Below, one piece after another: positions 10,795-50,359 of a stretch of DNA of 56,931 nucleotides. Origin of the DNA: Nitrospirota bacterium (lineage in GTDB: Bacteria > Nitrospirota > UBA9217). The notes beneath the pieces are model-generated. The model had not been told where the DNA came from. It did not search any database and was given only the letters and a program-made list of their open reading frames with translations. The first letter of the stretch is position 1; each line of letters begins with the position of its first letter. The DNA lies in assembly GCA_035516965.1 (NCBI GenBank), contig DATIZR010000019.1, positions 1 to 56,931 of the forward strand, read 5' to 3'. Both the position numbers and the translations under genes were made by a program.

Positions 10795-12129
10795 TCACCC
10801 CTCCAGCACATACACCGCATACCCTCTTGGCGGGGCGTAGAATTCACCCCAACCATCGCCGTTGGTCCATTGCTCCTGCGGAATCCCCGCATCGTCCCTT
10901 CCGCGCCACGCCGCAGGAACGAATCTCGTGTTGCTCCACTGCGTCTTTACCCCTGCCCCGTTCCAGGCATCGCCCCGGTTGTTCATGACGAAGACGAGCC
11001 CCTTTTGCGCGCCCATGCCGCTTCGCTGCATGATGTAGAGGTCGTCGTCGCAATGGAGGATTGATGTTCCACCCCCCGCGTGGTCTTCATGCACCCGCAC
11101 GAGGGCATCGATCCCGCCCTTGAGCCCTGCCTGCGCCAGTCCCCACGTGTAGTAGTCCTGCCAGAACACGCAGGGGTAACCCTCGTGGGTCAGGATGAAG
11201 GCGTAGGCCAGCATCTTTTCGTTCACGATCGGATCGTCGCGCGCAATGTCGTGGTTTTCCACGAACGTGACGGCCTGATAGGGCCTGTCTTTCATGAGGG
11301 TCCCGCCCTCGGCCAGGCTCCTCAGGCTGAACCCGTAGGTGTCGCACAGGTCCTTCAGGCGATAGCGCAGCGGAAAATCGAAGGCGCCTGCCGGGTTGTC
11401 GGACCAGGCATTCGTTTCGTCGAGCCAGTCAGAGATCCTGCGGTCGCTGTCCCAGCATTCGCCCACGCCGAAGGGCTTCAAGACCGTTCCGTTCCTGATC
11501 GCCCGCAGCTCCTGGATCGCGCGGACCATCCAGCCTCCGTACCCCTTGACGCAGTCATACCGGAAACCGTCGAAACGTATGTCTTCCAGGAGCCACTTCG
11601 CGTATTCGATGAGATGGGTGTACACGGCGGGGTTCCGGTGGCAAAGGTCGGGCATGTCGCCGAAGGCCATCTGGTCCCAGCGTTCGTACGGGGAAGGATG
11701 AAAATAGGTGTAGTCGCGCTTGAACTTGCCGCTCTTGGGAATGAACCTCGTCCATCTCTTCTGATTGTCGAGGGGGTTCAGCTCCTCGCTGTCCCCCCCG
11801 CTGTTGTGATTGATCACCAGGTCGGCATACACGTTCATGCCGCTGTCGTGGGCGGCCCGGATCAGTGCGAGCAGCTGGTCCTTCGAGCCGAACCAGGTCT
11901 TTGTCGATCCCTTCTGGGCGATGTCCCCGAGGTCGTAGTAGTCATACGGGTCGTACCCCATCGAGGGGCCGCTCAGGTTGGCGGCCTTGCTCGCGGGAGG
12001 CAGCCAGAGCGCGGTGAAGCCCGCGTCTTTCAGCGAGGGGACCTTTCCCTTGACGTGGTCCCACCACTCGTATTCTTTTCCTTCCAGCCTGGGGCAATCC
12101 CAGTAGAACGCCTGCATGATGACGCCCAC
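10795..12129 (-). CDS. Cytoplasmic alpha-amylase, GH13 family
   Basis: The start is a GTG at 12127-12129 behind GAGGAGG. The 444-aa product opens MGVIMQAFYWDCP without a signal peptide and has the GH13 catalytic barrel. Region I is YADLVINHN (about 101-109). Region II is FDGFRYDCVKG with nucleophile Asp192. Region III is GVGECWD with acid/base Glu224. Region IV is FVENHD with Asp294. The layout (QAFYW opening, YDYYDLGDIAQKGS) fits the bacterial/plant-like cytoplasmic amylases that hydrolyse alpha-1,4-glucans such as glycogen. The C-terminal beta domain ends GYAVYVLEG. It is transcribed away from luxI and shares that gene's upstream region, including the lux box about 160 bp before its start. 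Confidence 0.9.
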   Translation of the reverse strand: MGVIMQAFYWDCPRLEGKEYEWWDHVKGKVPSLKDAGFTALWLPPASKAANLSGPSMGYDPYDYYDLGDIAQKGSTKTWFGSKDQLLALIRAAHDSGMNVYADLVINHNSGGDSEELNPLDNQKRWTRFIPKSGKFKRDYTYFHPSPYERWDQMAFGDMPDLCHRNPAVYTHLIEYAKWLLEDIRFDGFRYDCVKGYGGWMVRAIQELRAIRNGTVLKPFGVGECWDSDRRISDWLDETNAWSDNPAGAFDFPLRYRLKDLCDTYGFSLRSLAEGGTLMKDRPYQAVTFVENHDIARDDPIVNEKMLAYAFILTHEGYPCVFWQDYYTWGLAQAGLKGGIDALVRVHEDHAGGGTSILHCDDDLYIMQRSGMGAQKGLVFVMNNRGDAWNGAGVKTQWSNTRFVPAAWRGRDDAGIPQEQWTNGDGWGEFYAPPRGYAVYVLEG

Positions 12130-12285
12130 GGAACCTCCTCACGATGTCGATTAGCAATGGGTGTTGTGGGAACGGACAAGTGTTATTGCGCGTGGCGTTC
12201 TTCTTCGTGCGGATTCCGGCCAATGCATCCCGGCGTCCTCCGCTGGTTTCCTCTTTAAACTATAGTAGGAAATCCCGGATACGTC

Positions 12286-12305
12286 ACCTGTCAATAGTGA
12301 CAGGT
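12286..12305 (+). promoter_or_regulatory. lux box (predicted LuxR-type operator)
   Basis: ACCTGTCAATAGTGACAGGT is a 20-bp perfect palindrome in its outer 7 bp per arm; one more C/G pair outside extends it to 22 bp. The outer half-sites ACCTGT and ACAGGT and the total length equal those of the Vibrio fischeri lux operon operator. Its centre is about 69 bp before the luxI start codon. If the promoter is class II (operator centred at -42.5), transcription would start near 12338, with a weak extended -10 (TGCTAT region, 12324-12332). The site also lies in the upstream region of the divergent amylase. Confidence 0.85.
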
Positions 12306-12364
12306 GCATTTGCCCGCGTTCGATGCTATTGATGGGTGTCAGATCATTCCAAAAAGGAGGAACT

Positions 12365-13126
12365 ATGAATATGCGGATTGTAGATACAGGCGGGATGTTG
12401 CCGGAAGTGACGGGTCGGATGGACTATCGAAGCATCGTACTGCAGGAGGCGGATCTCACGGTGAGGACCCTCATCGAGGAGAAGGACAAGGCGCAGGCCT
12501 ACCGGCTGCGCCACCGGATCTTCTGCGATGAGCTGAAATGGGTCCTTCACTCCACCGATGCCATGGAGTCTGATGAGTACGACCGGAACGCGGTCTTCTT
12601 CGGGGTCTTCGATGCGGGTAACAGGCTGGTTTCCTTCCTCCGGCTCATCATGCCCGGCCGCCAGTTCATGATGGAGAAGGAGTTTCTGTCTCTCGTCGGC
12701 CCGGAGCACCGGATAAGGAAGGAAATGGATACGGCCGAGATCTCCCGGTTATGCGTTGCGCCCGAGGCGCGGCACAATCACCTGGCCGGCAATTTCGATG
12801 TGCACCGGATATCCCTGATTCTGTTCAAGGGAGTCTATCAGTGGTGCGTGCTCAACAGGATACAATATCTCTACGCGGTAACGGAGCTGAAGGTATACCG
12901 TCTGTACTGTCTCAAAGGTTTTCCCTACCAATTGATCGGGAGGCCCGCGACGATGCCCGACGGGGTCACGGTCGTCGCCGTGATGCTGGACTGGCATGAA
13001 TTTGAAACGATGAACGCGGTCAAACGGCCGGATCTGTTCGACTGGTTCAGGCCGACTCGATTATCCCCGCTTCCAGGGCAATCGCAACCGCATGGGACCT
13101 GCTCGACGCGTTCAGCTTCAGCTTGA
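12365..13126 (+). CDS. luxI: Acyl-homoserine-lactone synthase, LuxI family
   Basis: The start is the ATG at 12365 behind AAAAAGGAGGAACT; an earlier in-frame codon at 12323 lies upstream of this site. The product is 253 aa. All ten residues usually conserved in LuxI enzymes can be placed with correct spacing: Arg49, Phe53 and Trp59 (RLRHRIFCDELKW), Asp70 and Asp73 (ESDEYD), Arg93, Phe107, then Glu125, Arg128 and Val131 (AEISRLCV). These enzymes make N-acyl-homoserine lactones from S-adenosylmethionine and an acyl-ACP or acyl-CoA. The protein is longer than typical (190-220 aa), with about 25 extra N-terminal residues and a C-terminal tail encoded in the region overlapping luxR. It probably forms an autoinduction loop through the lux box. 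The acyl group cannot be predicted. Confidence 0.9.
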   Translation: MNMRIVDTGGMLPEVTGRMDYRSIVLQEADLTVRTLIEEKDKAQAYRLRHRIFCDELKWVLHSTDAMESDEYDRNAVFFGVFDAGNRLVSFLRLIMPGRQFMMEKEFLSLVGPEHRIRKEMDTAEISRLCVAPEARHNHLAGNFDVHRISLILFKGVYQWCVLNRIQYLYAVTELKVYRLYCLKGFPYQLIGRPATMPDGVTVVAVMLDWHEFETMNAVKRPDLFDWFRPTRLSPLPGQSQPHGTCSTRSASA

Positions 13127-13817
13127 TGTTTTGACCGTGAAAGTGGACGGTCCTTTCGCTGATGCGCAGGATCCGGGAAATGTCCCAGGTGCTTTTTCCC
13201 TGCGTCATCCACCTCAGCACCTCCTTCTCCCGAAGCGACAGGGTGCCTGCTGTCCGGGACCGGTCGTACTTGACGGCCCTGCAGAGCGCCTGGTGGAGAT
13301 GAGGGATGGAGACGTCGAGAATGGTTTCCGTGCGGCCGCTCTGCTCCACGGCCCTTCCGGCAAAGGAGAACAGGCTCCCCTCTTCGCCGGTGAAGCTCCG
13401 GACTCCGTGCGTGTAGCCGCGGTCGAGGCCGAAGTCCTGGGCGAGGGAAAGGAACCCCTTCGGAGGCGGCATCTTCCGGTAGGTGTCGGCCCAGTATTGG
13501 ATCCGGAAGTTTGCGAAATTCTCCTGGAGAACGGGGTCGATCTGCTCGTAATTTCTCGTGACGTAGAGCTCGATCCATTCCGAGGGATAGTTTTCATTGA
13601 CGATATCGAGTGACCGGATCTGCCCGTCCATTCCCTTTTTGCAGACAAGGCACGTGGTGACATCGTAGGCCATCAACGTCTTCAATCTCGCAAGGAGTCC
13701 CCTGAACGCATCCAGATCGTGGCAGGCAAGGCTCTCCTGGATCAGTTCGAGAAGAGAACAGGCGTCCTGATGGGACAGGTTATGAATACCGGCTTTTGTT
13801 GCCGAAGACAGGCCCAT
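13047..13817 (-). CDS. luxR: LuxR-family acyl-homoserine-lactone receptor/activator
   Basis: The 256-aa product has GAGGGG upstream of its ATG. Residues about 20-180 are the autoinducer-binding domain with the canonical contacts Trp81 and Tyr85 (YPSEWIELY), Asp94-Pro95 (EQIDPV), Trp109 (QYWADTYRK) and a Gly at 138 (THGVRSF). Residues about 192-254 are the GerE-type helix-turn-helix (LSLREKEVLRWMTQGKS, ISERTVHFH, KLNASSRSHAV). Length and order match LuxR/TraR/LasR. It is convergent with luxI and overlaps it by 80 bp. The probable target is the lux box at 12286-12305. No lux-box-like palindrome was found upstream of luxR itself. Confidence 0.92.
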   Translation of the reverse strand: MGLSSATKAGIHNLSHQDACSLLELIQESLACHDLDAFRGLLARLKTLMAYDVTTCLVCKKGMDGQIRSLDIVNENYPSEWIELYVTRNYEQIDPVLQENFANFRIQYWADTYRKMPPPKGFLSLAQDFGLDRGYTHGVRSFTGEEGSLFSFAGRAVEQSGRTETILDVSIPHLHQALCRAVKYDRSRTAGTLSLREKEVLRWMTQGKSTWDISRILRISERTVHFHGQNIKLKLNASSRSHAVAIALEAGIIESA

Positions 13818-14079
13818 GGCTGTGATCCCCTCACGGGCGGAAATCGGCCCGTTTGATACTTCGCGTCCCGATAAATTTTTTTTGCAGAAGGGCGATGAGT
13901 GAATCCTGATGCATTTCTTCGAACGGACACTGCAAACATGCTACGAAAGGTAACGTTCGTTATTCGATATACGTATTTGAATCGAGGCGTGTTTTATTAT
14001 CGTGAACATTTCCCTGCTTGTCAAGAAATAAAAAATCCGGCATTCGGACCGCTTCCTGCCTTTCTTCGGTGCAGCCGGC

Positions 14080-14461: not shown

Positions 14462-14839
14462 CTACCGCAAAATCGAGTTGCCTGAATCCCGAATCATGGC
14501 AACGAGCCGTGCCATGATGTGTTCATATTTCTGATCCAGGCTCTCCGCGGTCTGCTTCTCGATGTAAGAACAACGCAGTGCAAGCTCAATCCGGGTTTGC
14601 GTTTCACATGCTTCCGACTCGCAATCGTTCAGTTTGCTCTTGAACGCTGCCTCGTACCGCCTCTTTCTCCAGGCTTCTGAAATATTTGCCGGCACTGAAC
14701 GGGAGGACCTGCGTATCTGATCGACAAGGGAATATCTTTCCTCAGAAGGAAACGTTTTCGTGACCGCGAAGATATCCATGGCCGCATCCATTGCATCCTG
14801 CCCTACCTCTAACTCGTTATGGCCTCGGATATTGCCCAC
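14462..14839 (-). CDS. Four-helix-bundle protein (S23 / intervening-sequence protein family)
   Basis: The start is a GTG at 14837-14839. The 125-aa product fits the family throughout: HNELEVGQDAMDAAMDIFAV, then FPSEERYSLVDQIRRSSRSV followed by PANISEAW, a Lys/Arg-rich turn, a helix LNDCESEACETQTRIELALR, and a closing helix. The first member was found encoded in intervening sequences of 23S rRNA genes, and a relative (Avd) works with diversity-generating retroelements. No rRNA or reverse transcriptase is nearby, so this is a free-standing copy of unknown function. Low-complexity repeats flank it on both sides. Confidence 0.85.
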   Translation of the reverse strand: MGNIRGHNELEVGQDAMDAAMDIFAVTKTFPSEERYSLVDQIRRSSRSVPANISEAWRKRRYEAAFKSKLNDCESEACETQTRIELALRCSYIEKQTAESLDQKYEHIMARLVAMIRDSGNSILR

Positions 14840-41182: not shown

Positions 41183-42535
41183 CTATGTCTCCGCTTTCAG
41201 CCGCTCGATCTCGGCCTTGATAAGCGTCTCGGCGAGATCGGGAACGACTTCCCAAGCCACCTTTTCGATGATGTCGCGGGCGACCTCCTGCACGATCCGG
41301 GACACGGAGCCCTGTACCGCGGCCTCCACTGCGGAGCGCAGCGTCTCCGGGGGTATCTGGGGCGGTTCGAGGGGCGGCAGCGTTGCGAACACCTCCCTGG
41401 ACATGGAAGAGATTGTCGTTTCCGCCATGCGCCGCAGCTCCTGCTCCGACACCGTTGGCGGTTGGAGCGAAGCCATGCTGCCCATTTGTTCTGTGACGAG
41501 CCGCGAGACGGTCCGTTCGACCATGCCCCGGACCTCGTCCTCCGGCATCGGCGGATGCTGGACGGGCGGCATCTTCTCGAACATCTCCCGCGCCATTTTC
41601 GAAACCGCGGCCTCGGCCATGTTCCAGAGGTCGGTCTCCGAGATCGCCGGCTGCTGCACCGCGGCCGAAGCGGGGACTGTTGCCGGTTCCGGCGGGGTCC
41701 ACTCCCGGGCCGCCGGAGCGGGTCTCTTGCCGGGGGCCGGTGCGAACTCCTTTTCCCCATTGACCGTCATATCGAGCGATTCAAAGCTCACGATGTCCTG
41801 GTCCGCTTTCCCGGCCCTGCTCGCCAGGCCGAGTCCCTCACGCATCTCTTCCATGGCCTTCTCACCGATCGGAAGGGAGGTTGACGTTTCGCGGGGCAAC
41901 TGCTCCTCTTCCACCTCTACGACGGGCTCGACCTCGTACACGCCCTCGTCTTCCTCGCCCCCGCCGGGCTTTGTCTTGAGATCGGCCTGGGTGGGCGCTT
42001 CTTCAATGATGGCAAAAATATCTGAGGGGGCCTGCGGCTTCGGCGCGGCCTTCGGCGAAGCAGGCGGAACCGTTGCCGGACGCACGGGGGGCGGCTGCAC
42101 GGGTGACGGCGGCTGAGAGGGCGCCGGACGCACGGCCTCAGGGGCTGGTCCGGCGGCCACCGGCGGTGCTGCGGCAACAGCCTTCTTCACTTTGCTGATG
42201 AGCTCCTGCGACTCGAAAGGTTTCGCGATATGATCACTGATTGAAACTTGTTTGGCCTTCGCCTCGTCGAACACATCGTCGCGGCTCATCATGAGGATCA
42301 CGGGCGTCTTTGTCAGGGCCGGAGACTGCTTCATCCTTCCCGAGAAGCTGTAGCCGTCAACGCGCGGAAGGTCGATGTCCGCGAGCACGACGTGGGGCAG
42401 AAAGCGTCCCGCCTCGCTGAGCGCGGTCTCCCCGTCGCTTACGCACAGAACTTCATACTCTTTTCCCGAAAAAAGCATCTCCACCACCTTCTGGATGGTG
42501 ATGCTTTTGTCAGCCAGCAATATCTTAATCGCCAT
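41183..42535 (-). CDS. Receiver protein with proline-rich linker and C-terminal 32-residue helical repeats
   Basis: The ATG at 42533-42535 (MAIKILLADKSITIQ) gives 450 aa. Residues 1-122 are a receiver (ADKS, phospho-Asp in VVLADIDLPRVDG, Lys in HIAKPFESQEL). Residues about 125-180 are very rich in Pro, Ala and Val, and 180-240 are acidic. Residues 300-395 hold three tandem 32-residue units, each starting near ETDLWNMAE, EDEVRGMVE or EQELRRMAE and closing in a PP-containing turn. A related fourth unit runs into the C-terminal motif KVAWEVVPDLAETLIKAEIE. Similar tails occur in receiver proteins of chemosensory and motility loci of related phyla. It overlaps the CheW gene by 11 bp. It may be a scaffold-type output protein. 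Confidence 0.8.
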   Translation of the reverse strand: MAIKILLADKSITIQKVVEMLFSGKEYEVLCVSDGETALSEAGRFLPHVVLADIDLPRVDGYSFSGRMKQSPALTKTPVILMMSRDDVFDEAKAKQVSISDHIAKPFESQELISKVKKAVAAAPPVAAGPAPEAVRPAPSQPPSPVQPPPVRPATVPPASPKAAPKPQAPSDIFAIIEEAPTQADLKTKPGGGEEDEGVYEVEPVVEVEEEQLPRETSTSLPIGEKAMEEMREGLGLASRAGKADQDIVSFESLDMTVNGEKEFAPAPGKRPAPAAREWTPPEPATVPASAAVQQPAISETDLWNMAEAAVSKMAREMFEKMPPVQHPPMPEDEVRGMVERTVSRLVTEQMGSMASLQPPTVSEQELRRMAETTISSMSREVFATLPPLEPPQIPPETLRSAVEAAVQGSVSRIVQEVARDIIEKVAWEVVPDLAETLIKAEIERLKAET

Positions 42536-42977
42536 GGAGCAACCTTTCAAAATCGAGGATCAGGGCCTCATAGTCCTCGTCGTAGACAAGCCCCTTCACG
42601 AAGCGGGGATTGATGCCCTGCATTTTTTCCGCAGCGGCCGCCTGCTCCTCCAGCTTCGTCATTTTCAGGACGGTATCGACGACGATGCCAAAAGGCCTCC
42701 CGTTCTCCTCCAGCAAAATGATGCTCTGGCCCTTCGGGGTCGAGCCCCCTCCCGCATCGGCGGTGAACCCTATCGGCCCCGGCCTGCCCAGTCCGAGGCG
42801 CTGAACCAGATTATAGACCGGATAGATGGTTCCCCGGTAGTCCAGCAGGCCCTCAACGTACGAATAGGACAGCGGCACCGGGCGGGACGGGCGCCAGGGC
42901 AGGATCTCGATCGCGCCGACAAGCTTGACACCGAACAGCCGCTGAGACAGCAGAAACAACAGATAGCTGTTCGTCAT
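42525..42977 (-). CDS. CheW-like coupling protein 1
   Basis: The 150-aa product is one CheW domain: LLFLLSQRLFGVKLVGAIEI, SYVEGLLDYRGTIYPVYNLV, SIILLEENGRPFGIVVDTVL. A Gly/Pro-rich insertion (about 63-80) separates the halves. It links receptor to kinase. It overlaps the next CheW gene by 4 bp (ATGA-type coupling) and the receiver-repeat gene by 11 bp. Two further CheW proteins are encoded in the operon. Confidence 0.85.
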   Translation of the reverse strand: MTNSYLLFLLSQRLFGVKLVGAIEILPWRPSRPVPLSYSYVEGLLDYRGTIYPVYNLVQRLGLGRPGPIGFTADAGGGSTPKGQSIILLEENGRPFGIVVDTVLKMTKLEEQAAAAEKMQGINPRFVKGLVYDEDYEALILDFERLLHGD

Positions 42978-43384
42978 TGCAACAGCCCTTCCTCATTCAG
43001 CAGCAGGATAAGCTCGCCTTTGTGCCGGATAATGCCGGCATAATACCGCAGCGCGGGGTTCAGCACCCCCGCCGGAAAGGAAGCCGGATTCTGATCGGCG
43101 TCTATGATCTCCGCGACTGCATCCACGAGCAGACCGATGACGCCCTTGATACCCTTGAGCACGAGCAAGACACCGCCGGCCTTGCCGGAAAGATTGAAGA
43201 TCTTCTTGGGGTTCAGGACCGGGATCGATTTTCCTCGGAACGCGACCTTGCCCTCGAACATCGAGGTGAGACCGCCGTCCTTCTGGATCTCGCGGGGAAG
43301 CGTGATCTCCAACAGCTTGGTAATCGGAACGGCGAAGCTCCCCCCGTCCAGTGATAATATCAAAAAACGTCTGCCTTCGTCCAT
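42974..43384 (-). CDS. CheW-like coupling protein 2
   Basis: The 136-aa CheW-domain protein reads FLILSLDGGSFAVPITKLLE, FEGKVAFRGKSIPVLNPKKI, GVLLVLKGIKGVIGLLVDAV and ends in NEEGLLQ. It lies 12 bp after the CheA stop. It lacks recognisable extra domains. Together with its neighbour it may replace the single CheW of flagellar systems or serve a second receptor. Confidence 0.85.
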   Translation of the reverse strand: MDEGRRFLILSLDGGSFAVPITKLLEITLPREIQKDGGLTSMFEGKVAFRGKSIPVLNPKKIFNLSGKAGGVLLVLKGIKGVIGLLVDAVAEIIDADQNPASFPAGVLNPALRYYAGIIRHKGELILLLNEEGLLQ

Positions 43385-43396
43385 AGCGGTTTGAGC

Positions 43397-46129
43397 TTAT
43401 GCGCGGTGTGCCAGAGTGGCGCCGCTCAGGAGCTTTTTGAGCGCCCCGAGCATTTCCTGTTCTTCGAAGGGTTTTACCAGGTAGTCCTGCGCGCCCATCT
43501 CGATGGCCTTCTGCCGGTGCTTCTCGCCGGCCCTCGAGGTGAGCACGATTACGGGGATGTTCATGAGCGCCGGATTGCGCTTCATCTCGGCAATCAGGTC
43601 ATAGCCGTGCATGACGGGCATTTCCAGATCGGTGATCACCGCATCGAACTTGACGCGGCCCATGATGTTCAGCGCCTCCATGCCGTCGGGCGCCACCTCC
43701 ACTTCATAGCCGGTCCGGTCCAGGAAGCGCTGAACATATTTCCGGATACTGATCGAATCATCGACAACCAGGACCCGGGGCTTGCGCCGCGCCGCCTCCG
43801 GCGAGATGGCCTCCCGGGCGGCGATGAAACTCGCCTTGGCGGCCATTGCGGACTCGTCGCCGAAAAGCGTCGCGATATTGAGGATGAGCCGGACGTTCCC
43901 CTCGCCGGAGATCGTAGCGCCGGAGAACATCTTGACGCCCCGCAGGTAATCGCCGAGGGACTTCACCACAATCTCCTCGCGCCCGACAATGTCTTCGACC
44001 ATCACGGCGATCCGTTTTTCCGCCATGCCGAGGATGAGCGTCGGGTGCCGGAACGTCTCCTCTTTCTGGGGAAACTTGCCGACGTTCAGCAGGTCGTTCA
44101 GCATGAGCAGCCTGACGAGCGTGCCGCGCAGATTCACCATCTCCTCGCCGGCGGCGCGCTGAATATCCTTAAAGGAAAACCGGGTCGTTTCCTCCACGAG
44201 GTTCATCGGCACCGCCAGCTCCTGGTCCTTGAACTTCACGATCAGCGCCTGGGCAATGGCAAGCGTGAGCGGAAGCCTGATCACGAATTTGGTCCCGACG
44301 CCCTTTTCGGTCTTTATCTCGATCCTGCCGTTGATCTTCGCGAGGTGCGTCGACACCACATCCATCCCGACACCGCGGCCCGAGATCTTCCCGACGCTCT
44401 GTGCCGTGGAAAAGCCGGGGCGGAAGATCAGGTTCAGGGCTTCCAGGTCGGTGAGGTTCTGCGCCTCGGCCGGGCTCATGAACCCCTTGTCTGCGGCGGT
44501 CTGCCGGAGGACTGCCGGATCCATGCCGCGGCCGTCATCCTCGATCTCAAGGATGATGCTGTTGCCTTCGTGGCGGGCCTTCATGATGAACGAACCGACC
44601 GGCTCCTTGCCGAGCCTTCTCCGCTCCTCGGCGGGCTCGATGCCGTGGGAAATGGCGTTCCTGACCATGTGCATCATCGGGTCGGATATGATCTCAAAAA
44701 TAGTCTTGTCGATCTTCGTCTCGCCGCCTGAGACCACCATGTTGACCTGCTTGTTCTCTTCCCCGGCCAGATCGCGCACCGGCCGCTGAAACATCTGGTA
44801 CAGCCGGTCCACGTCCACCATGCGTGCACGGGTGATCTCATCCTGAAGGTTCGTCGTGATCGTCGAGATGCGCGCCGTGTCGAGCTCGAAGGAGTCGAAG
44901 AAGCCCGCAAGCTCGGTCATGATCTCGTTCATATCGTTCGTGATCTCCGTGAGCTTCCGGGAAAGCAGGTTGAAATCATCATAGCGGTCGAACTCGAGAT
45001 CCATGAAGTCGCTCGATGGTTGAACGACCTGCTCCGGCTCCGCCGTGCCGTACGTAAGCGTATACTCGTATTTCTCCTCGAACTTCTTGATCTCATGCAG
45101 CAGCCGGTTCTGGCTGAATGCCAGCTCCTCGCGGAGCGTCTTGATGAACTCCACTTGGCGCGCAAGCCGGTTCCTGTTCACGACCATCTCGCCGACGAGG
45201 TTCATCAGATTGTCGAGCCGTTCGATGTTGACGCGAATGAACTGCTTCTCGACTTCCCCAGCGTCGGAGGCCCGCCTCCCGAGCCCTCTCTTTTCCTGGA
45301 TGCCGGAACGCTTGGACTCCTCGATCTCCTGCTTCAGGGAAGCCCCGTCCTCCCTGGGCAGCGCAGCAGGTTCGGGCCCCGGAGCCGGAGGGGCCACGGC
45401 AGCAGGAACGCCGGACACGGGCGGAGTTGACAGCGCTGATACCGGCGGCTTCGGTGCAGGCATTGGGGGTTTTGCAGGCTCCCTGTCAGCGATGCGTTCT
45501 CCCGAGACCTCTTCATCGATTTCAAAAGTTCGTTCCCAGGCGAGGTCCAGGTCGTCCTTGGCCTGTGATGCCTGTGCAGGCGGTGGAGCACTCTTCGACG
45601 GAGCCGGGGCAGCCATCTCAGCGTCCGTCTTTGCCGGAGCTTGGACCGCCTTTTCCGGAGCCGGTTTCGCCGGCGGGGCTGCGGGTTTTTCCGTACTCGT
45701 CGGGGCCGGGGCGGCCTGGCCCGTTCCCGCTTGCACCTTGGCGATGATGTCCTTGTAGGATTGGGTGATGCTGTTGACGACGAGGGGGTCTTCAGCCTGG
45801 TTTGCGGCCACGCCGTCAACCATCAGCTTGGCTGCATCAACACTGTCGAAGAGAAAATTCAGGGTCTCTTTCTGGATCGGGATGGACCCGGCCCGGAACT
45901 GTCCGAGCATGTCCTCTGCCTTGTGCGCCACATCGCTGATCCCCTGATAGCCCATCATCGCAGCGGAACCCTTCAGGGTATGCGCCGCGCGGAACAGCTC
46001 ATCGATGATCGAACTGTCGTTCGGGTCCTTCTCAAGGGACAGCAGTCCCTTGTTGAGGTTCTGGATGTGCTCACCGGCCTCGATCAGAAAAAACTCGATG
46101 ATGCCTGATTTGTCGAAGGGGGCAGCCAT
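43397..46129 (-). CDS. cheA: CheA-type histidine kinase with C-terminal receiver
   Basis: The 910-aa hybrid kinase starts with an Hpt domain (residues about 8-110; phosphoacceptor His50 in LFRAAHTLKGSAAMMG). A long Pro/Ala/Lys-rich linker (about 135-270) follows. The P3 dimerisation helix pair has RLDNLMNLVGEMVVNRNRLA. The HATPase has MVRNAISHGIEPAEERRRLG, EIEDDGRGMD and GRGVGMDVVSTHLAKINGRI. The CheW-like P5 domain has LALVK-type strands (AIAQALIVKFKDQELAVPMN). The receiver (about 775-900) has its phospho-Asp in DAVITDLEMPVMHG. This arrangement is seen in FrzE and ChpA/PilL-type systems rather than the flagellar CheA. It starts 5 bp after the MCP stop. Confidence 0.93.
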   Translation of the reverse strand: MAAPFDKSGIIEFFLIEAGEHIQNLNKGLLSLEKDPNDSSIIDELFRAAHTLKGSAAMMGYQGISDVAHKAEDMLGQFRAGSIPIQKETLNFLFDSVDAAKLMVDGVAANQAEDPLVVNSITQSYKDIIAKVQAGTGQAAPAPTSTEKPAAPPAKPAPEKAVQAPAKTDAEMAAPAPSKSAPPPAQASQAKDDLDLAWERTFEIDEEVSGERIADREPAKPPMPAPKPPVSALSTPPVSGVPAAVAPPAPGPEPAALPREDGASLKQEIEESKRSGIQEKRGLGRRASDAGEVEKQFIRVNIERLDNLMNLVGEMVVNRNRLARQVEFIKTLREELAFSQNRLLHEIKKFEEKYEYTLTYGTAEPEQVVQPSSDFMDLEFDRYDDFNLLSRKLTEITNDMNEIMTELAGFFDSFELDTARISTITTNLQDEITRARMVDVDRLYQMFQRPVRDLAGEENKQVNMVVSGGETKIDKTIFEIISDPMMHMVRNAISHGIEPAEERRRLGKEPVGSFIMKARHEGNSIILEIEDDGRGMDPAVLRQTAADKGFMSPAEAQNLTDLEALNLIFRPGFSTAQSVGKISGRGVGMDVVSTHLAKINGRIEIKTEKGVGTKFVIRLPLTLAIAQALIVKFKDQELAVPMNLVEETTRFSFKDIQRAAGEEMVNLRGTLVRLLMLNDLLNVGKFPQKEETFRHPTLILGMAEKRIAVMVEDIVGREEIVVKSLGDYLRGVKMFSGATISGEGNVRLILNIATLFGDESAMAAKASFIAAREAISPEAARRKPRVLVVDDSISIRKYVQRFLDRTGYEVEVAPDGMEALNIMGRVKFDAVITDLEMPVMHGYDLIAEMKRNPALMNIPVIVLTSRAGEKHRQKAIEMGAQDYLVKPFEEQEMLGALKKLLSGATLAHRA

Positions 46130-46134
46130 AGGGT

Positions 46135-48000
46135 TTATTCGACAAAGCCGAGCTTGATCTCCTCGTCACTCGTAGTGATCTGCTCGGTCACCGGCGGAAG
46201 GCCCTCCAGCTCAGGGAGCTCATGTTCGATCGGCTGTCTGATGATGCCTTCCTTGAGCTTGAACCTGCCGATGGCGTCGATGAGCCGCTTGGAGAGCTCG
46301 GCCAGCTTGCCGATCGTGGAGACCGTGTCCTGCACGCCGTGAGTCGTCTCCTGGGTCTGCTTCAGGATGCTGTCCATGGCGTGCGCCACGCTCTCCGTTG
46401 ATTTCACCTGGTCCGTCGCGGCCCGGGTAATGTCCGTCATGAGCGTCGCTGTCTGCTTCACGATCTGCTCGATCTCGCGGAGCGCCGAACCGGCCTGGTC
46501 GGCCAGCCTGGTTCCCTCTTCCACTTCGCGGGTTCCTTCCTCCATGACCGTCACGGCCTCGCTCGTTTCCACCTGGATGCCCTTGATGAGCCCCGTGATG
46601 TCCTTCGTGGCGCGGGCGGCGCGTTCCGCCAGTTTCCGCACTTCATCGGCAACGACTGCGAAGCCCTTACCCTGCTCGCCGGCGCGCGCGGCCTCGATTG
46701 CTGCATTGAGCGCCAGCAGGTTTGTCTGGGTCGCGATCTCGTTGATCACTTCGATGATGGCCCCGATCTCGAGCGAGCGTTCGCCCAGTCCCTTGATCTT
46801 CTTCCCCGTGGTCTGCACCGCAGCCCTGATGCGCTGCATACCCTTGATCGTCTCTGCCACGGATGCTCCGCCCTTGACCGCCGCCTGGGTTGCATTGAGA
46901 GACGTCTGGGTCGCGGCGTCAGCGTTCTCGGCCATGCGCTGCGTCGTATGGGACATGGAGTTCACGGCCGTCGACACTTCCATGATCTGCGAAGCCTGCT
47001 GCTCGGTGCCCAGCCGCATGCGTTCCGACGACTGCAGGATTTCCGAGGTCGAGCGCTGGATCTCGCTGGCCACATTGCTTGCCTGGGTAACAAGGTTGGT
47101 AAGACCGGTGATCATGAGGTTGAACGCGTCAGCCACGGAGCCTAGGGCGTCGGCGGTCACTTCGGCCTTGACCGTCAGATCGCCTTCAGCCGCCGTACTC
47201 ACGACGGAGAGGAGGTCCATGACCTGATGCTGCATCTTGTCCCGGTCGCTTTCGGTCTGGATCAAGCCCTGGAGTCGGTCGATCGTCTGGTTGAATGTGT
47301 CGCCGAGCTGGCCCAGCTCGTCGCCGCGTTTCACGGTCGCCTTCCTTGTCAGATCGCCTCGGCCCAGCGCCTCGGCCACGCGCATCAGATCCCTGACCGG
47401 CGCAATCGTCCTTGCCGCAGCCCACATGGTGAGGATCGAGAGCAACAGGAGGGACCCGGCGCCGACGATCATGATCTTGTACAGCAGATTCCTGATGTTG
47501 TTCTTGATCTGCGTCATATTGAGACCCACGTGCACAGAGCCAAGCGTGCCGCCCGCGATCGGGGAGGCGATATCGATCACCTCGGTCACAATGTCCCTGA
47601 TCGTAATGTTCGCCGCCTGGGTGCTGAAGGGCATGCCGGGCTTCAGGATGTTGATCGATTGAAGCACGCTCGGGACCGCATTGCCCTCGAAGGATGAGGA
47701 GATGACCCTGCCCCGTCCGTCACGGATGAAACAGTACGCGACATCGGGCTGGCTGATAGCCTCGCCCTGGACGAACTGGAGGGCGTTGAGGTCCTCCACC
47801 TGGACCGGCTCCGCGGCCTTCACGCTCAAGCCGTCAGCCAGGATCAGTGTTTTGTTGATCGATTCGTCGCGGAGCGTTACCTGGATCTGATTGTATATGT
47901 AGAACAGGATGCTGGCGCCGAAGATGATGGACATGGTCAGAATCATGAGCACGATTTTGGTCCGGATGCTCATCCGGTAGAATGGACTTCGTATCTTCAT
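46135..48000 (-). CDS. Methyl-accepting chemotaxis protein with double HAMP
   Basis: The 621-aa receptor has a basic N-terminus, TM1 (about 14-36), a periplasmic sensor of about 135 residues, and TM2 (about 173-195). A HAMP domain ([20 protein letters not shown]) and a second HAMP-like unit (about 255-305, [19 protein letters not shown]) follow. The MA signalling domain has the hairpin tip [20 protein letters not shown] followed by [20 protein letters not shown]. It ends with an acidic tail and no CheR-docking pentapeptide. The layout recalls PilJ. It is the only receptor in the operon. Confidence 0.92.
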
Positions 48001-48061
48001 AAGTGTCTGCTCCTTCGCTCGAATTAGGTTTGTACAGCACGAGCTGCCCGAATTTCAGGAA

Positions 48062-48553
48062 TCACTCCAGCTTGATCTCTTCGATGATCTGCTCGACGTT
48101 CAACAGGCCTGCCACGCCCTCTTCCCGCTGAATGACGCTTTTTAAAAAGCGGCTGCGGCTCTTGCCGGGCTGGGCACTCGCGTCAGCGGGCATCGCGAGC
48201 ACTCTGCTGACGGGCACGGCGATCACCTCGGAGACATTGTCGACGACGATGCCGAGCGTCACTGCCCGGTGCCTGATGATCGCGATCTGATTCGGGGATG
48301 ACTGCCGCGGCAGGGAAAGCGCCGCACGGATGTCAACAATCGGAACTATGTTGCCTCGGAGATTCATGACCCCGAGTACGTGCGGTGGAGTGGTAGGGAC
48401 GGGAAATATCTTTTGAGAGATGATGATTTCTGTCAGCAGTTCAACCGGAATGGCATAGAGGTCCTCGCCCATACTGAAGAGGCAGACCCGGATGTCCTCC
48501 TCCCGTATTTCATGGGTCACTCCGGCGCTTACATCAGTGTCGATCTCGGCCAA
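48062..48553 (-). CDS. CheW-like coupling protein 3
   Basis: The 163-aa CheW domain protein reads EDIRVCLFSMGEDLYAIPVE, PPHVLGVMNLRGNIVPIVDI and TLGIVVDNVSEVIAVPVSRV. It ends in an extended tail FLKSVIQREEGVAGLLNVEQ. It is closest to classical CheW in length. It lies between the CheY-like regulator and the MCP. Confidence 0.88.
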   Translation of the reverse strand: MAEIDTDVSAGVTHEIREEDIRVCLFSMGEDLYAIPVELLTEIIISQKIFPVPTTPPHVLGVMNLRGNIVPIVDIRAALSLPRQSSPNQIAIIRHRAVTLGIVVDNVSEVIAVPVSRVLAMPADASAQPGKSRSRFLKSVIQREEGVAGLLNVEQIIEEIKLE

Positions 48554-48571
48554 ACGGCACCCCTCCTCGGA

Positions 48572-48931
48572 TCAGATGTACTTTTTCACGGCCTTCAGCA
48601 GGTCTTCCGGCTTGAACGGCTTGGTTAAATACTCATCGGCGCCCTGTTTCATCCCCCAGAACTTATCGCTCTCCTGGTCTTTCGAGGTGACCATGATGAC
48701 GGGGATGTTCTTGAACTGGTCATTGGTCTTGATGTCCCTGCAGACCTGGAAGCCATTCTTCTTCGGCATGATCACATCGAGAATGATAAGGTCGATCTTC
48801 TCGGACTTTACCTTTTCCTCGGCGGCTTCACCGTCCATCACGGTCACCAGCGTATGGCCTGTCGGCTGCAAAGCCGCCTGGAATATCTGGAGCTCCGCCA
48901 AGCTGTCGTCCGCTATGAGTATTTTGGCCAT
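48572..48931 (-). CDS. CheY/PilH-like response regulator
   Basis: The 119-aa receiver-only protein has the acidic site ADDS at 7-10, phospho-Asp in LIILDVIMPKKNGFQVCRDI, Thr in VIMVTSKDQES and Lys in EYLTKPFKPEDLLKAV. The KKNGFQVCRDIK signature is typical of PilH/PilG-like regulators of twitching-type chemosensory systems. GGAGAACACA precedes the ATG. It has its own AT-rich upstream region with promoter-like sequences and may be transcribed separately as well as from the operon promoter. Confidence 0.88.
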   Translation of the reverse strand: MAKILIADDSLAELQIFQAALQPTGHTLVTVMDGEAAEEKVKSEKIDLIILDVIMPKKNGFQVCRDIKTNDQFKNIPVIMVTSKDQESDKFWGMKQGADEYLTKPFKPEDLLKAVKKYI

Positions 48932-48959
48932 TGTGTTCTCCTTTTTTCAGCACGCAAAG

Positions 48960-48997
48960 AGTATACAAAAATTAACATATTTCTTTTGTAGTGTCAA
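48960..48997 (-). promoter_or_regulatory. Putative promoter upstream of the PilH-like gene
   Basis: On the minus strand TTGACA (48992-48997) is followed by GTTAAT at 15 bp spacing, and further down by TATACT (48960-48965). The region is markedly AT-rich. The exact -10 is uncertain. Confidence 0.45.
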
Positions 48998-49036
48998 GTT
49001 TTCCTTTTATTCCTGCAGGTTCCGGGCGCTCTTCTT

Positions 49037-50359
49037 TTATTTCCGTTTCCGGATCAGATTCACGGAGAGAAGGATGAACATGCTCTTCGCCACATCGAAC
49101 TCGCTCAGACAGGACAGGTCGATGATCTCCTGAATCGTCCGCCTGCCGTCGATGAGGGAGAAGACCGTCATGTCCGTATCGCTCATGCCCCGCGTCGTCA
49201 GCTCCTCGGCATTCCCGATCATGGCCTCGAAGACCGCCGCGAAGCTCGGGATCTTCTGCTGGATCAGGGTCCACTCGTCAGCCCGGCGCGCGCCCTCGAG
49301 AAGCAGGTCGTCAACCTTGATCTGGAGCTGTGTCGTGAACTGGGGCGGCGACGATCTCTCGAAGACAAAGTCGCCATCGCGCCAGGACATGACCCTGTAG
49401 ACGGCGGACTCGGTATGCCTGCGGAGGCACTCCCCGAAGGTCTTCAGGTCGAGCAGCTTCTCCTGGGCAAGCACGCTGTCGATCGGCTTTGCCGTCATTT
49501 CGGCGATGCGCTCGACGTATTTCAGGCTCTCTTCGGCCAACCGGCACGTTTTTTTGAGCAGCGCTTCGATACCACCGTCCTGTCCACTATAGGATGAGGC
49601 AAACACGACAGCCCCGTCACGGAAATAAATGTCGGCATGCTCGTTCTGGCGGGAGATGGCAAGCTTGCCGGTCTGACGCTGCAAGCCGAGCATCTGCATC
49701 ACCTCGACGATCCGGAAGCTCGCGAGGTTGCCCTGGATGCCGGCATTGGTAGGTGCCGGTCCCTTCCCGAGTTCCTGCCGGATGATGTCGGGAAGCCTCA
49801 TGCGGACGAACTCTTCGAGTGTCTTTTCCACAATATCCCGGACCAGAGCTTCCAGTCCCGATGACTGCGCTGCGGCGGCATAGGCCGGTTGAGCCGGTGA
49901 AGGCGAGGACGGGGCGGCGGGAGCAGCGGGAGAAGCCCTCTTTACTTCGCGGGCCGTTTTCGCCTGTGCGGCGGCTTTTCGCCCGTCGATGACCTCGCGG
50001 ATCTTTGCGAGAAGCTCCTCCGGTTGAAAGGGCTTCGTAAAATATTCGGTGATGCCAAGAACGTCGATGAACTTGCTCCCGACCTTGTCGCCCTTTGACG
50101 TTACGAGGATGATGGGAGTGTCCTGGAATTCCGGGTCTTCCTTCAGAGTCTTGCATACCTGGAACCCGTTCATCTTGGGCATCACGAAGTCGACGAGGAT
50201 AACCTCGGGCTTTTCCGCCTTGGCCATGGCGATGCCTGCCTCGCCGTCGGAGGCAAGGACGACCTTGTATCCTTGAGACGACAGGATCATCTCGATCAAC
50301 CGCTGGACCGTCGGGCTGTCGTCTATGTTTAATATTTTTTCCCCAGCCAACCTAGTCAC
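49037..50359 (-). CDS. Receiver - PATAN/DUF4388 response regulator
   Basis: The start is a GTG at 50357-50359. The 440-aa product has a receiver (residues 1-127; DDSP at 13-16, phospho-Asp in VILVDFVMPKMNG, Lys in YFTKPFQPEEL) and an Ala/Pro-rich linker (130-165). A helical segment EALVRDIVEKTLEEFVRMRL follows, then a DUF4388/PATAN domain (about 205-330: QGNLASFRIVEVMQMLGLQR, TGKLAISRQNEHADIYFRDG). A C-terminal helical region ends in SLIDGRRTIQEIIDLSCLSE. PATAN receivers occur in motility and exopolysaccharide regulation, for example in phototaxis and type IV pili control. It is the first gene of the operon. Confidence 0.87.
   Translation of the reverse strand: MTRLAGEKILNIDDSPTVQRLIEMILSSQGYKVVLASDGEAGIAMAKAEKPEVILVDFVMPKMNGFQVCKTLKEDPEFQDTPIILVTSKGDKVGSKFIDVLGITEYFTKPFQPEELLAKIREVIDGRKAAAQAKTAREVKRASPAAPAAPSSPSPAQPAYAAAAQSSGLEALVRDIVEKTLEEFVRMRLPDIIRQELGKGPAPTNAGIQGNLASFRIVEVMQMLGLQRQTGKLAISRQNEHADIYFRDGAVVFASSYSGQDGGIEALLKKTCRLAEESLKYVERIAEMTAKPIDSVLAQEKLLDLKTFGECLRRHTESAVYRVMSWRDGDFVFERSSPPQFTTQLQIKVDDLLLEGARRADEWTLIQQKIPSFAAVFEAMIGNAEELTTRGMSDTDMTVFSLIDGRRTIQEIIDLSCLSEFDVAKSMFILLSVNLIRKRK

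Follow-up and report, generated by a model that had tools for sequence, protein, structure and literature searches.

The window (the whole 56,931-nucleotide stretch of DNA analysed) contains a complete LuxI/LuxR quorum-sensing circuit that is native to a lineage of Nitrospirota and probably works. Judged from the sequence, the probability of this reading is about 0.85. An earlier note on this DNA had proposed a complete circuit with a real lux box, and this was borne out, the synthase gene, the receptor gene and a box in the luxI promoter region being adjacent. The elements of the locus are as follows.

10795-12129, minus strand: GH13 alpha-amylase gene, divergent from luxI (PF00128, 69 bits); predicted second target of the box.
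12259-12264, minus strand: candidate divergent -10 element TATAGT from a promoter scan, its centre 34 bp from the box centre.
12286-12305, unstranded: lux box ACCTGTCAATAGTGACAGGT; no shuffle match, sole exact copy in the genome, conserved before luxI across the phylum.
12327-12332, plus strand: candidate luxI -10 element TATTGA, read from the sequence (TG at 12324-12325), its centre 34 bp from the box centre, a presumed spacing.
12355-12360, plus strand: luxI Shine-Dalgarno sequence AGGAGG, read from the sequence.
12365-13126, plus strand: luxI, acyl-homoserine lactone (AHL) synthase, 253 aa; PF00765 at 68 bits, ten canonical residues, solved AHL synthases nearest.
13047-13126, unstranded: convergent overlap of the luxI and luxR 3′ ends, 80 bp with both stops counted.
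13047-13817, minus strand: luxR, AHL-type transcription factor, 256 aa; PF03472 at 85 bits and GerE (PF00196) at 74 bits.
13996-14024, minus strand: candidate luxR promoter TTGACA-17-GATAAT from a promoter scan, 11 of 12 consensus matches.

The lux box was palindromic at 9 of 10 pairs, with outer half-sites ACCTGT/ACAGGT, and its end lay 59 bp from the luxI ATG, in agreement with the 20-bp palindrome about 60 bp before luxI, with outer half-sites as in Vibrio fischeri, that had been described earlier. The V. fischeri lux box has the outer half-sites ACCTGT/ACAGGT and, as in the window, stands beside the synthase gene; luxR, however, is divergent from luxI there, and the targets and the phylum also differ. 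When the window was shuffled 100 times, no chance match to the box within 3 mismatches was obtained, and a looser half-site pattern with two mismatches allowed was expected 0.15 times in the window. The box was the only match to ACCTGTC-N6-GACAGGT at 14 of 14 positions in the 3.8-Mb host genome, and since the genome holds no further exact box, no regulon is visible beyond the locus. A genome-wide lux-box regulon was considered and rejected: 9 sites were found with at most 2 mismatches, compared with 7 for the reversed pattern, and, besides the luxI box, nearly all of them fell within open frames. One clearly intergenic site, 473 bp ahead of a lactonase-like gene, was too weak to claim.

In the family designated f9, which we take to be the Nitrospira family on grounds that include an identical lux box, ACCTGGC-N6-GCCAGGT or a near form preceded luxI at 27 of 29 loci, and one of the two loci without a box is truncated by a contig end. 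At one f9 locus (L029), the box was identical in every letter to the published Nitrospira box, ACCTGGCGGTTCCGCCAGGT. Outside f9, an ACCTGT-type box preceded luxI at 10 of 15 loci, mostly as ACCTGTC-N6-GACAGGT and in some cases imperfect; it was absent or unrecognizable at the other five, including that of G009, which carries the only other luxI of the host class. Near-matches to the box were not in excess in the genomes searched beyond their luxI loci. The LuxR recognition helix read RT[VI]RFH where the box was ACCTGGC (f9) and RTV[HKIN]FH where it was ACCTGT. A receptor adapted to its site should show such covariation, which here amounts essentially to one split between clades. G130 (L069), where two luxR genes flank luxI, has two lux boxes that differ from each other and are separated by 84 bp. 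The f9 loci (L003-L037) also share a conserved motif near TGGAACCATCCGCC, which lies some 20 bp past the box towards luxI. It is unlike a sigma-70 -10 element and could represent a promoter or operator element of an unusual kind.

The spacing of the candidate -10 elements from the box centre (12295.5) was first spotted in the window and afterwards tested on relatives, with hexamers scored as -10-like at 4 or more of 6 matches to TATAAT. On the divergent side, such a hexamer was present 33-35 bp from the box in 8 of 9 non-f9 loci (0 of 5,000 shuffles, p<0.0002) and, with the window left out, in 7 of 8 (0 of 20,000 shuffles). On the luxI side, a -10 at that spacing was present in 3 of 10 loci and was not enriched (p 0.35), and the luxI-side element of the window is itself weak. 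The divergent-side enrichment suggests that the lux box is a two-way switch, and it agrees with the stronger divergent output published for Nitrospira.

In the window, the divergent alpha-amylase gene begins with GTG and has a strong ribosome site, GAGGAGG; the prediction that it is a target of the lux box is given roughly even odds. The gene in this position varies by lineage, being a HisKA_3 kinase in f9, polyketide-cyclase-like in G189, CheR in G275, a hybrid kinase in G292 and a second LuxR in G130. At five f9 loci (L004, L005, L006, L021 and L029) it encodes a HisKA_3/HATPase_c kinase of 260-290 aa without an obvious membrane part. The f9 kinase divergent from luxI is predicted, and likely, to be a quorum-sensing target. 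As for conserved neighbours of luxIR, only paralogue-rich sensor kinases recurred, which could be chance, and these were set aside.

The circuit is predicted to operate as follows. LuxI would join an acyl chain and SAM into an acyl-homoserine lactone, both its function and the chain being predictions, and luxR would be transcribed from its own sigma-70-like promoter. LuxR with the signal would bind the box at 12286-12305, which would stand in for a -35 element, and the bound LuxR would activate luxI, giving positive feedback, and presumably also the divergent alpha-amylase gene. Autoinduction is the likely mechanism given the published activity and binding of the box of NspI/NspR1, from activated-sludge Nitrospira. 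In that system one box gave 14-fold reporter activity on the nspI side and 197-fold on the divergent side, the activity required C8-HSL and LuxR, and the box was bound in a gel shift with RNA polymerase (PMC8553950). Binding of AHL and of the lux box by the window LuxR is supported indirectly, being predicted from the conserved boxes and this Nitrospira relative. The two systems are alike in that a box before luxI is shared with a divergent gene and has outer half-sites ACCTG/CAGGT. They differ in that the NspI/NspR1 box is of the ACCTGGC type and that of the window ACCTGTC; the f9 pairs read do not overlap; the host there is Nitrospira; and the divergent gene is annotated as GGDEF/EAL for NspI/NspR1, whereas the f9 loci read carry the HisKA_3 kinase gene there and the window carries the alpha-amylase gene.

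Profile searches resolved the window LuxR into an autoinducer-binding domain and a C-terminal GerE helix-turn-helix. Equivalents of LuxR W57, Y61, D70, P71, W85 and G113, and of E178, L182 and G188 in the helix-turn-helix, were mapped by eye and are taken to be present; with the PF03472 and GerE scores, they uphold the ligand-pocket residues and helix-turn-helix reported earlier. No lux box was found upstream of luxR. At all 37 distinct luxI loci first examined, luxR was convergent beside luxI. The tail-to-tail overlap of the two genes, which the earlier note did not mention, measured 80 bp in ten inner-clade loci including the window and was shorter in G009 and G033, at 46-49 bp; because the luxI stop lies antisense to the conserved LuxR end, the constant length may simply reflect LuxR conservation. 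In G182 (L074:4323-5598), the luxI and luxR 3′ ends enter sequence unlike that of the other members and overlap by 423 bp, possibly through a rearrangement or an assembly fault.

This layout bears on whether LuxR activates or represses. In the EsaI/EsaR mode, signal-free LuxR would repress and AHL would free it from the box, and EsaR-type repressors use a convergent, overlapping luxI/luxR arrangement. Among solved structures, however, the closest to the window LuxR was CviR (117 bits), which is an activator. The arrangement is the R2 topology found in 53 proteobacterial genomes, with overlaps of 2-79 bp (PMC3386692) compared with 80 bp in the window, and so the overlap is not new; in the trees, the window proteins are placed in a clade distinct from the Proteobacteria sampled. 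While the topology speaks for repression, the box centre stands 34 bp from the candidate -10 elements, the position of an activator, and the characterized Nitrospira relative activates (PMC8553950). Repression by signal-free LuxR was judged unlikely, and activation by AHL-bound LuxR is preferred.

The window LuxI scored 68.3 bits against PF00765 (cut-off 24) in the profile search. Its open frame extends further upstream, and the ATG at 12365 was picked on Shine-Dalgarno grounds. As had been claimed, all ten canonical residues (R25, F29, W35, E44, D46, D49, R70, F84, E101 and R104) were present with the family spacing kept, and in alignment the string RFWEDDRFER matched EsaI and BmaI. All sequence features examined assign the pair to the LuxI/LuxR kind. 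The nearest solved structures were established by sequence search, the AlphaFold2 model built from two sequences (mean pLDDT 44) being too poor for fold comparison. A match to TIGR03694 (PEP-CTERM/exosortase acyltransferase) of 67 bits, below the curated cut-off of 112, and a marginal FeeM match would fit a relative of exosortase-associated acyltransferases or of the N-acyl amino acid synthase FeeM. The TIGR03694-like proteins of the phylum, however, group on a starred branch of their own, with M in place of F29, and lack an adjacent full LuxR, whereas the window LuxI exceeds the PF00765 cut-off and is paired with an AHL-type LuxR and a lux box, and a non-AHL enzyme is very improbable. LuxI-like proteins without a full LuxR, with M for F29 and in a separate branch, were seen in f5, f19, f21, f26 and f36. 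L071, L072, L075, L076 and L077 are LuxI-like with no full LuxR partner, and the two of them that were scanned scored just below the exosortase-acyltransferase cut-off.

As contig C19, the window belongs to a host genome of 3.8 Mb that is 98% complete and 3% contaminated; the class of this host comprised 14 genomes of one family (f1) in this analysis. RNase J, encoded 1.2 kb from luxR, was 83-87% identical within f1, whereas its identity elsewhere did not exceed 69%. The ValRS encoded on this contig was mostly 75-81% identical within f1, with 62-80% for individual pieces of broken matches, and about 49-66% identical outside the family. Since both are closest to the host family, the contig is rightly placed in the genome. 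The host is taken to belong to Nitrospirota, though not to the class of Nitrospira, and the markers showed no sign of a proteobacterial contaminant; it lies beyond the classical AHL producers, as the earlier note had proposed, and outside the Nitrospira family. The host genome had a dsrA match well above cut-off. The Nitrospira-type genome G276 does not carry dsrA; its best matches to the type II DMSO-reductase family, which includes NxrA, are two long proteins that score below cut-off.

Other genes of the host were also read. A gene for a 23S rRNA-intervening-sequence (IVP) protein (14462-14839, minus strand) lies between luxR and RNase J. A chemotaxis-like cluster (41183-50359, minus strand) encodes response regulators, a CheA-type kinase with CheW and receiver domains, two CheW proteins, a methyl-accepting protein and a DUF4388 regulator. 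On contig C46 of the host (G000; L102:3351-4355), an MBL-fold protein resembles AttM/AiiA lactonases (102 bits, cut-off 390). By this sub-cut-off match, the host may also degrade the AHL signal.

PF00765 matches were present in 96 of the 396 phylum genomes sampled, 87 above cut-off; because exosortase-type relatives match PF00765, counts of AHL synthases made with this profile only are inflated. Paired luxIR genes were read in nine families (f1, f4, f5, f9, f19, f20, f24, f25 and f31). The LuxI tree separated the Nitrospirota sequences as a whole from the 14 of Proteobacteria (99/96). In it the window grouped with f1, f4, f5, f19 and f20 (93/94, not starred), and f9 together with f24, f25 and f31 stood alongside. 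In the LuxR tree, f9 formed a single clade (100/100) without the window, which again grouped with f1, f4, f5, f19 and f20 (90/96). Neither window protein, then, belongs to the Nitrospira-type clade; both fall in the other Nitrospirota branch. Phages searched for comparison sequences yielded nothing. The phylogenies proposed earlier thus give a Nitrospirota clade apart from the Proteobacteria sampled, but independence from Proteobacteria is unproven, since that sample consisted mostly of plasmid sequences with a few solved structures and CviR lies near the Nitrospirota LuxRs.

The window LuxI was 59% identical to that of f20, its best match, 45% to that of Nitrospirae bacterium NC_groundwater_1774 (L002; JACRHJ010000013), 40% to that of G009, and about 23-33% to plasmid-borne proteobacterial LuxI. 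Within the host class luxI was patchy, occurring in 2 of 14 genomes, although in G001, of the same genus as the host, its absence is not certain because the luxR gene sits at a contig end (C3:57-362). LuxI is nearer to f20 than to G009 and the housekeeping genes show the opposite, a mismatch that points to transfer between classes within Nitrospirota or to loss of old copies in some lineages only. A proteobacterial contaminant or recent proteobacterial import would accord with this patchiness and with luxI-side neighbours of RNase J that are not beside RNase J in relatives, but is hardly credible when RNase J and ValRS match the host family and the best LuxI match is to another Nitrospirota family and not to plasmid-borne Proteobacteria.

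Earlier papers had already described AHL quorum sensing in Nitrospirota (PMC5767232, PMC8553950, PMC12342949). A Nitrospira japonica strain with NjpI/NjpR was shown to make C10-C14 AHLs; this is a Nitrospirota LuxI/LuxR pair like that of the window, but from the genus Nitrospira, and the paper reports no lux box (PMC5767232). Quorum-sensing genes have also been reported throughout Nitrospirales (PMC12342949). The surprise that the earlier note attached to an AHL circuit outside the classical producers was consequently overstated, AHLs and a LuxR-lux box having been demonstrated in Nitrospira (PMC5767232, PMC8553950); what stands is a host that is not Nitrospira. A 2016 review stated that genome mining of sulfate reducers lacked synthases (PMC5187520), and a literature search of partial coverage returned no paper joining Nitrospirota, dsrA and luxI.

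With this locus, AHL signalling in Nitrospirota extends beyond the Nitrospira family, to a genome bearing dissimilatory sulfite reductase. It adds a different class and metabolism, conservation of the box across the phylum, and a specific and testable proposal of a two-way promoter whose other output is an amylase. With the conserved box, the traits under control of the signal can be probed precisely and cheaply, and the loci collected across the phylum are material for studying joint change of a receptor and its DNA site. Tentatively, and at somewhat less than even odds, Nitrospirota may own an old AHL branch, spanning at least nine families and including dsr-bearing lineages, in which one bidirectional box serves a constant core and the stronger output is a swappable divergent gene (amylase, histidine kinase, CheR or second LuxR). 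If so, the controlled trait would change by swapping the divergent neighbour of luxI, with the signalling core unchanged.
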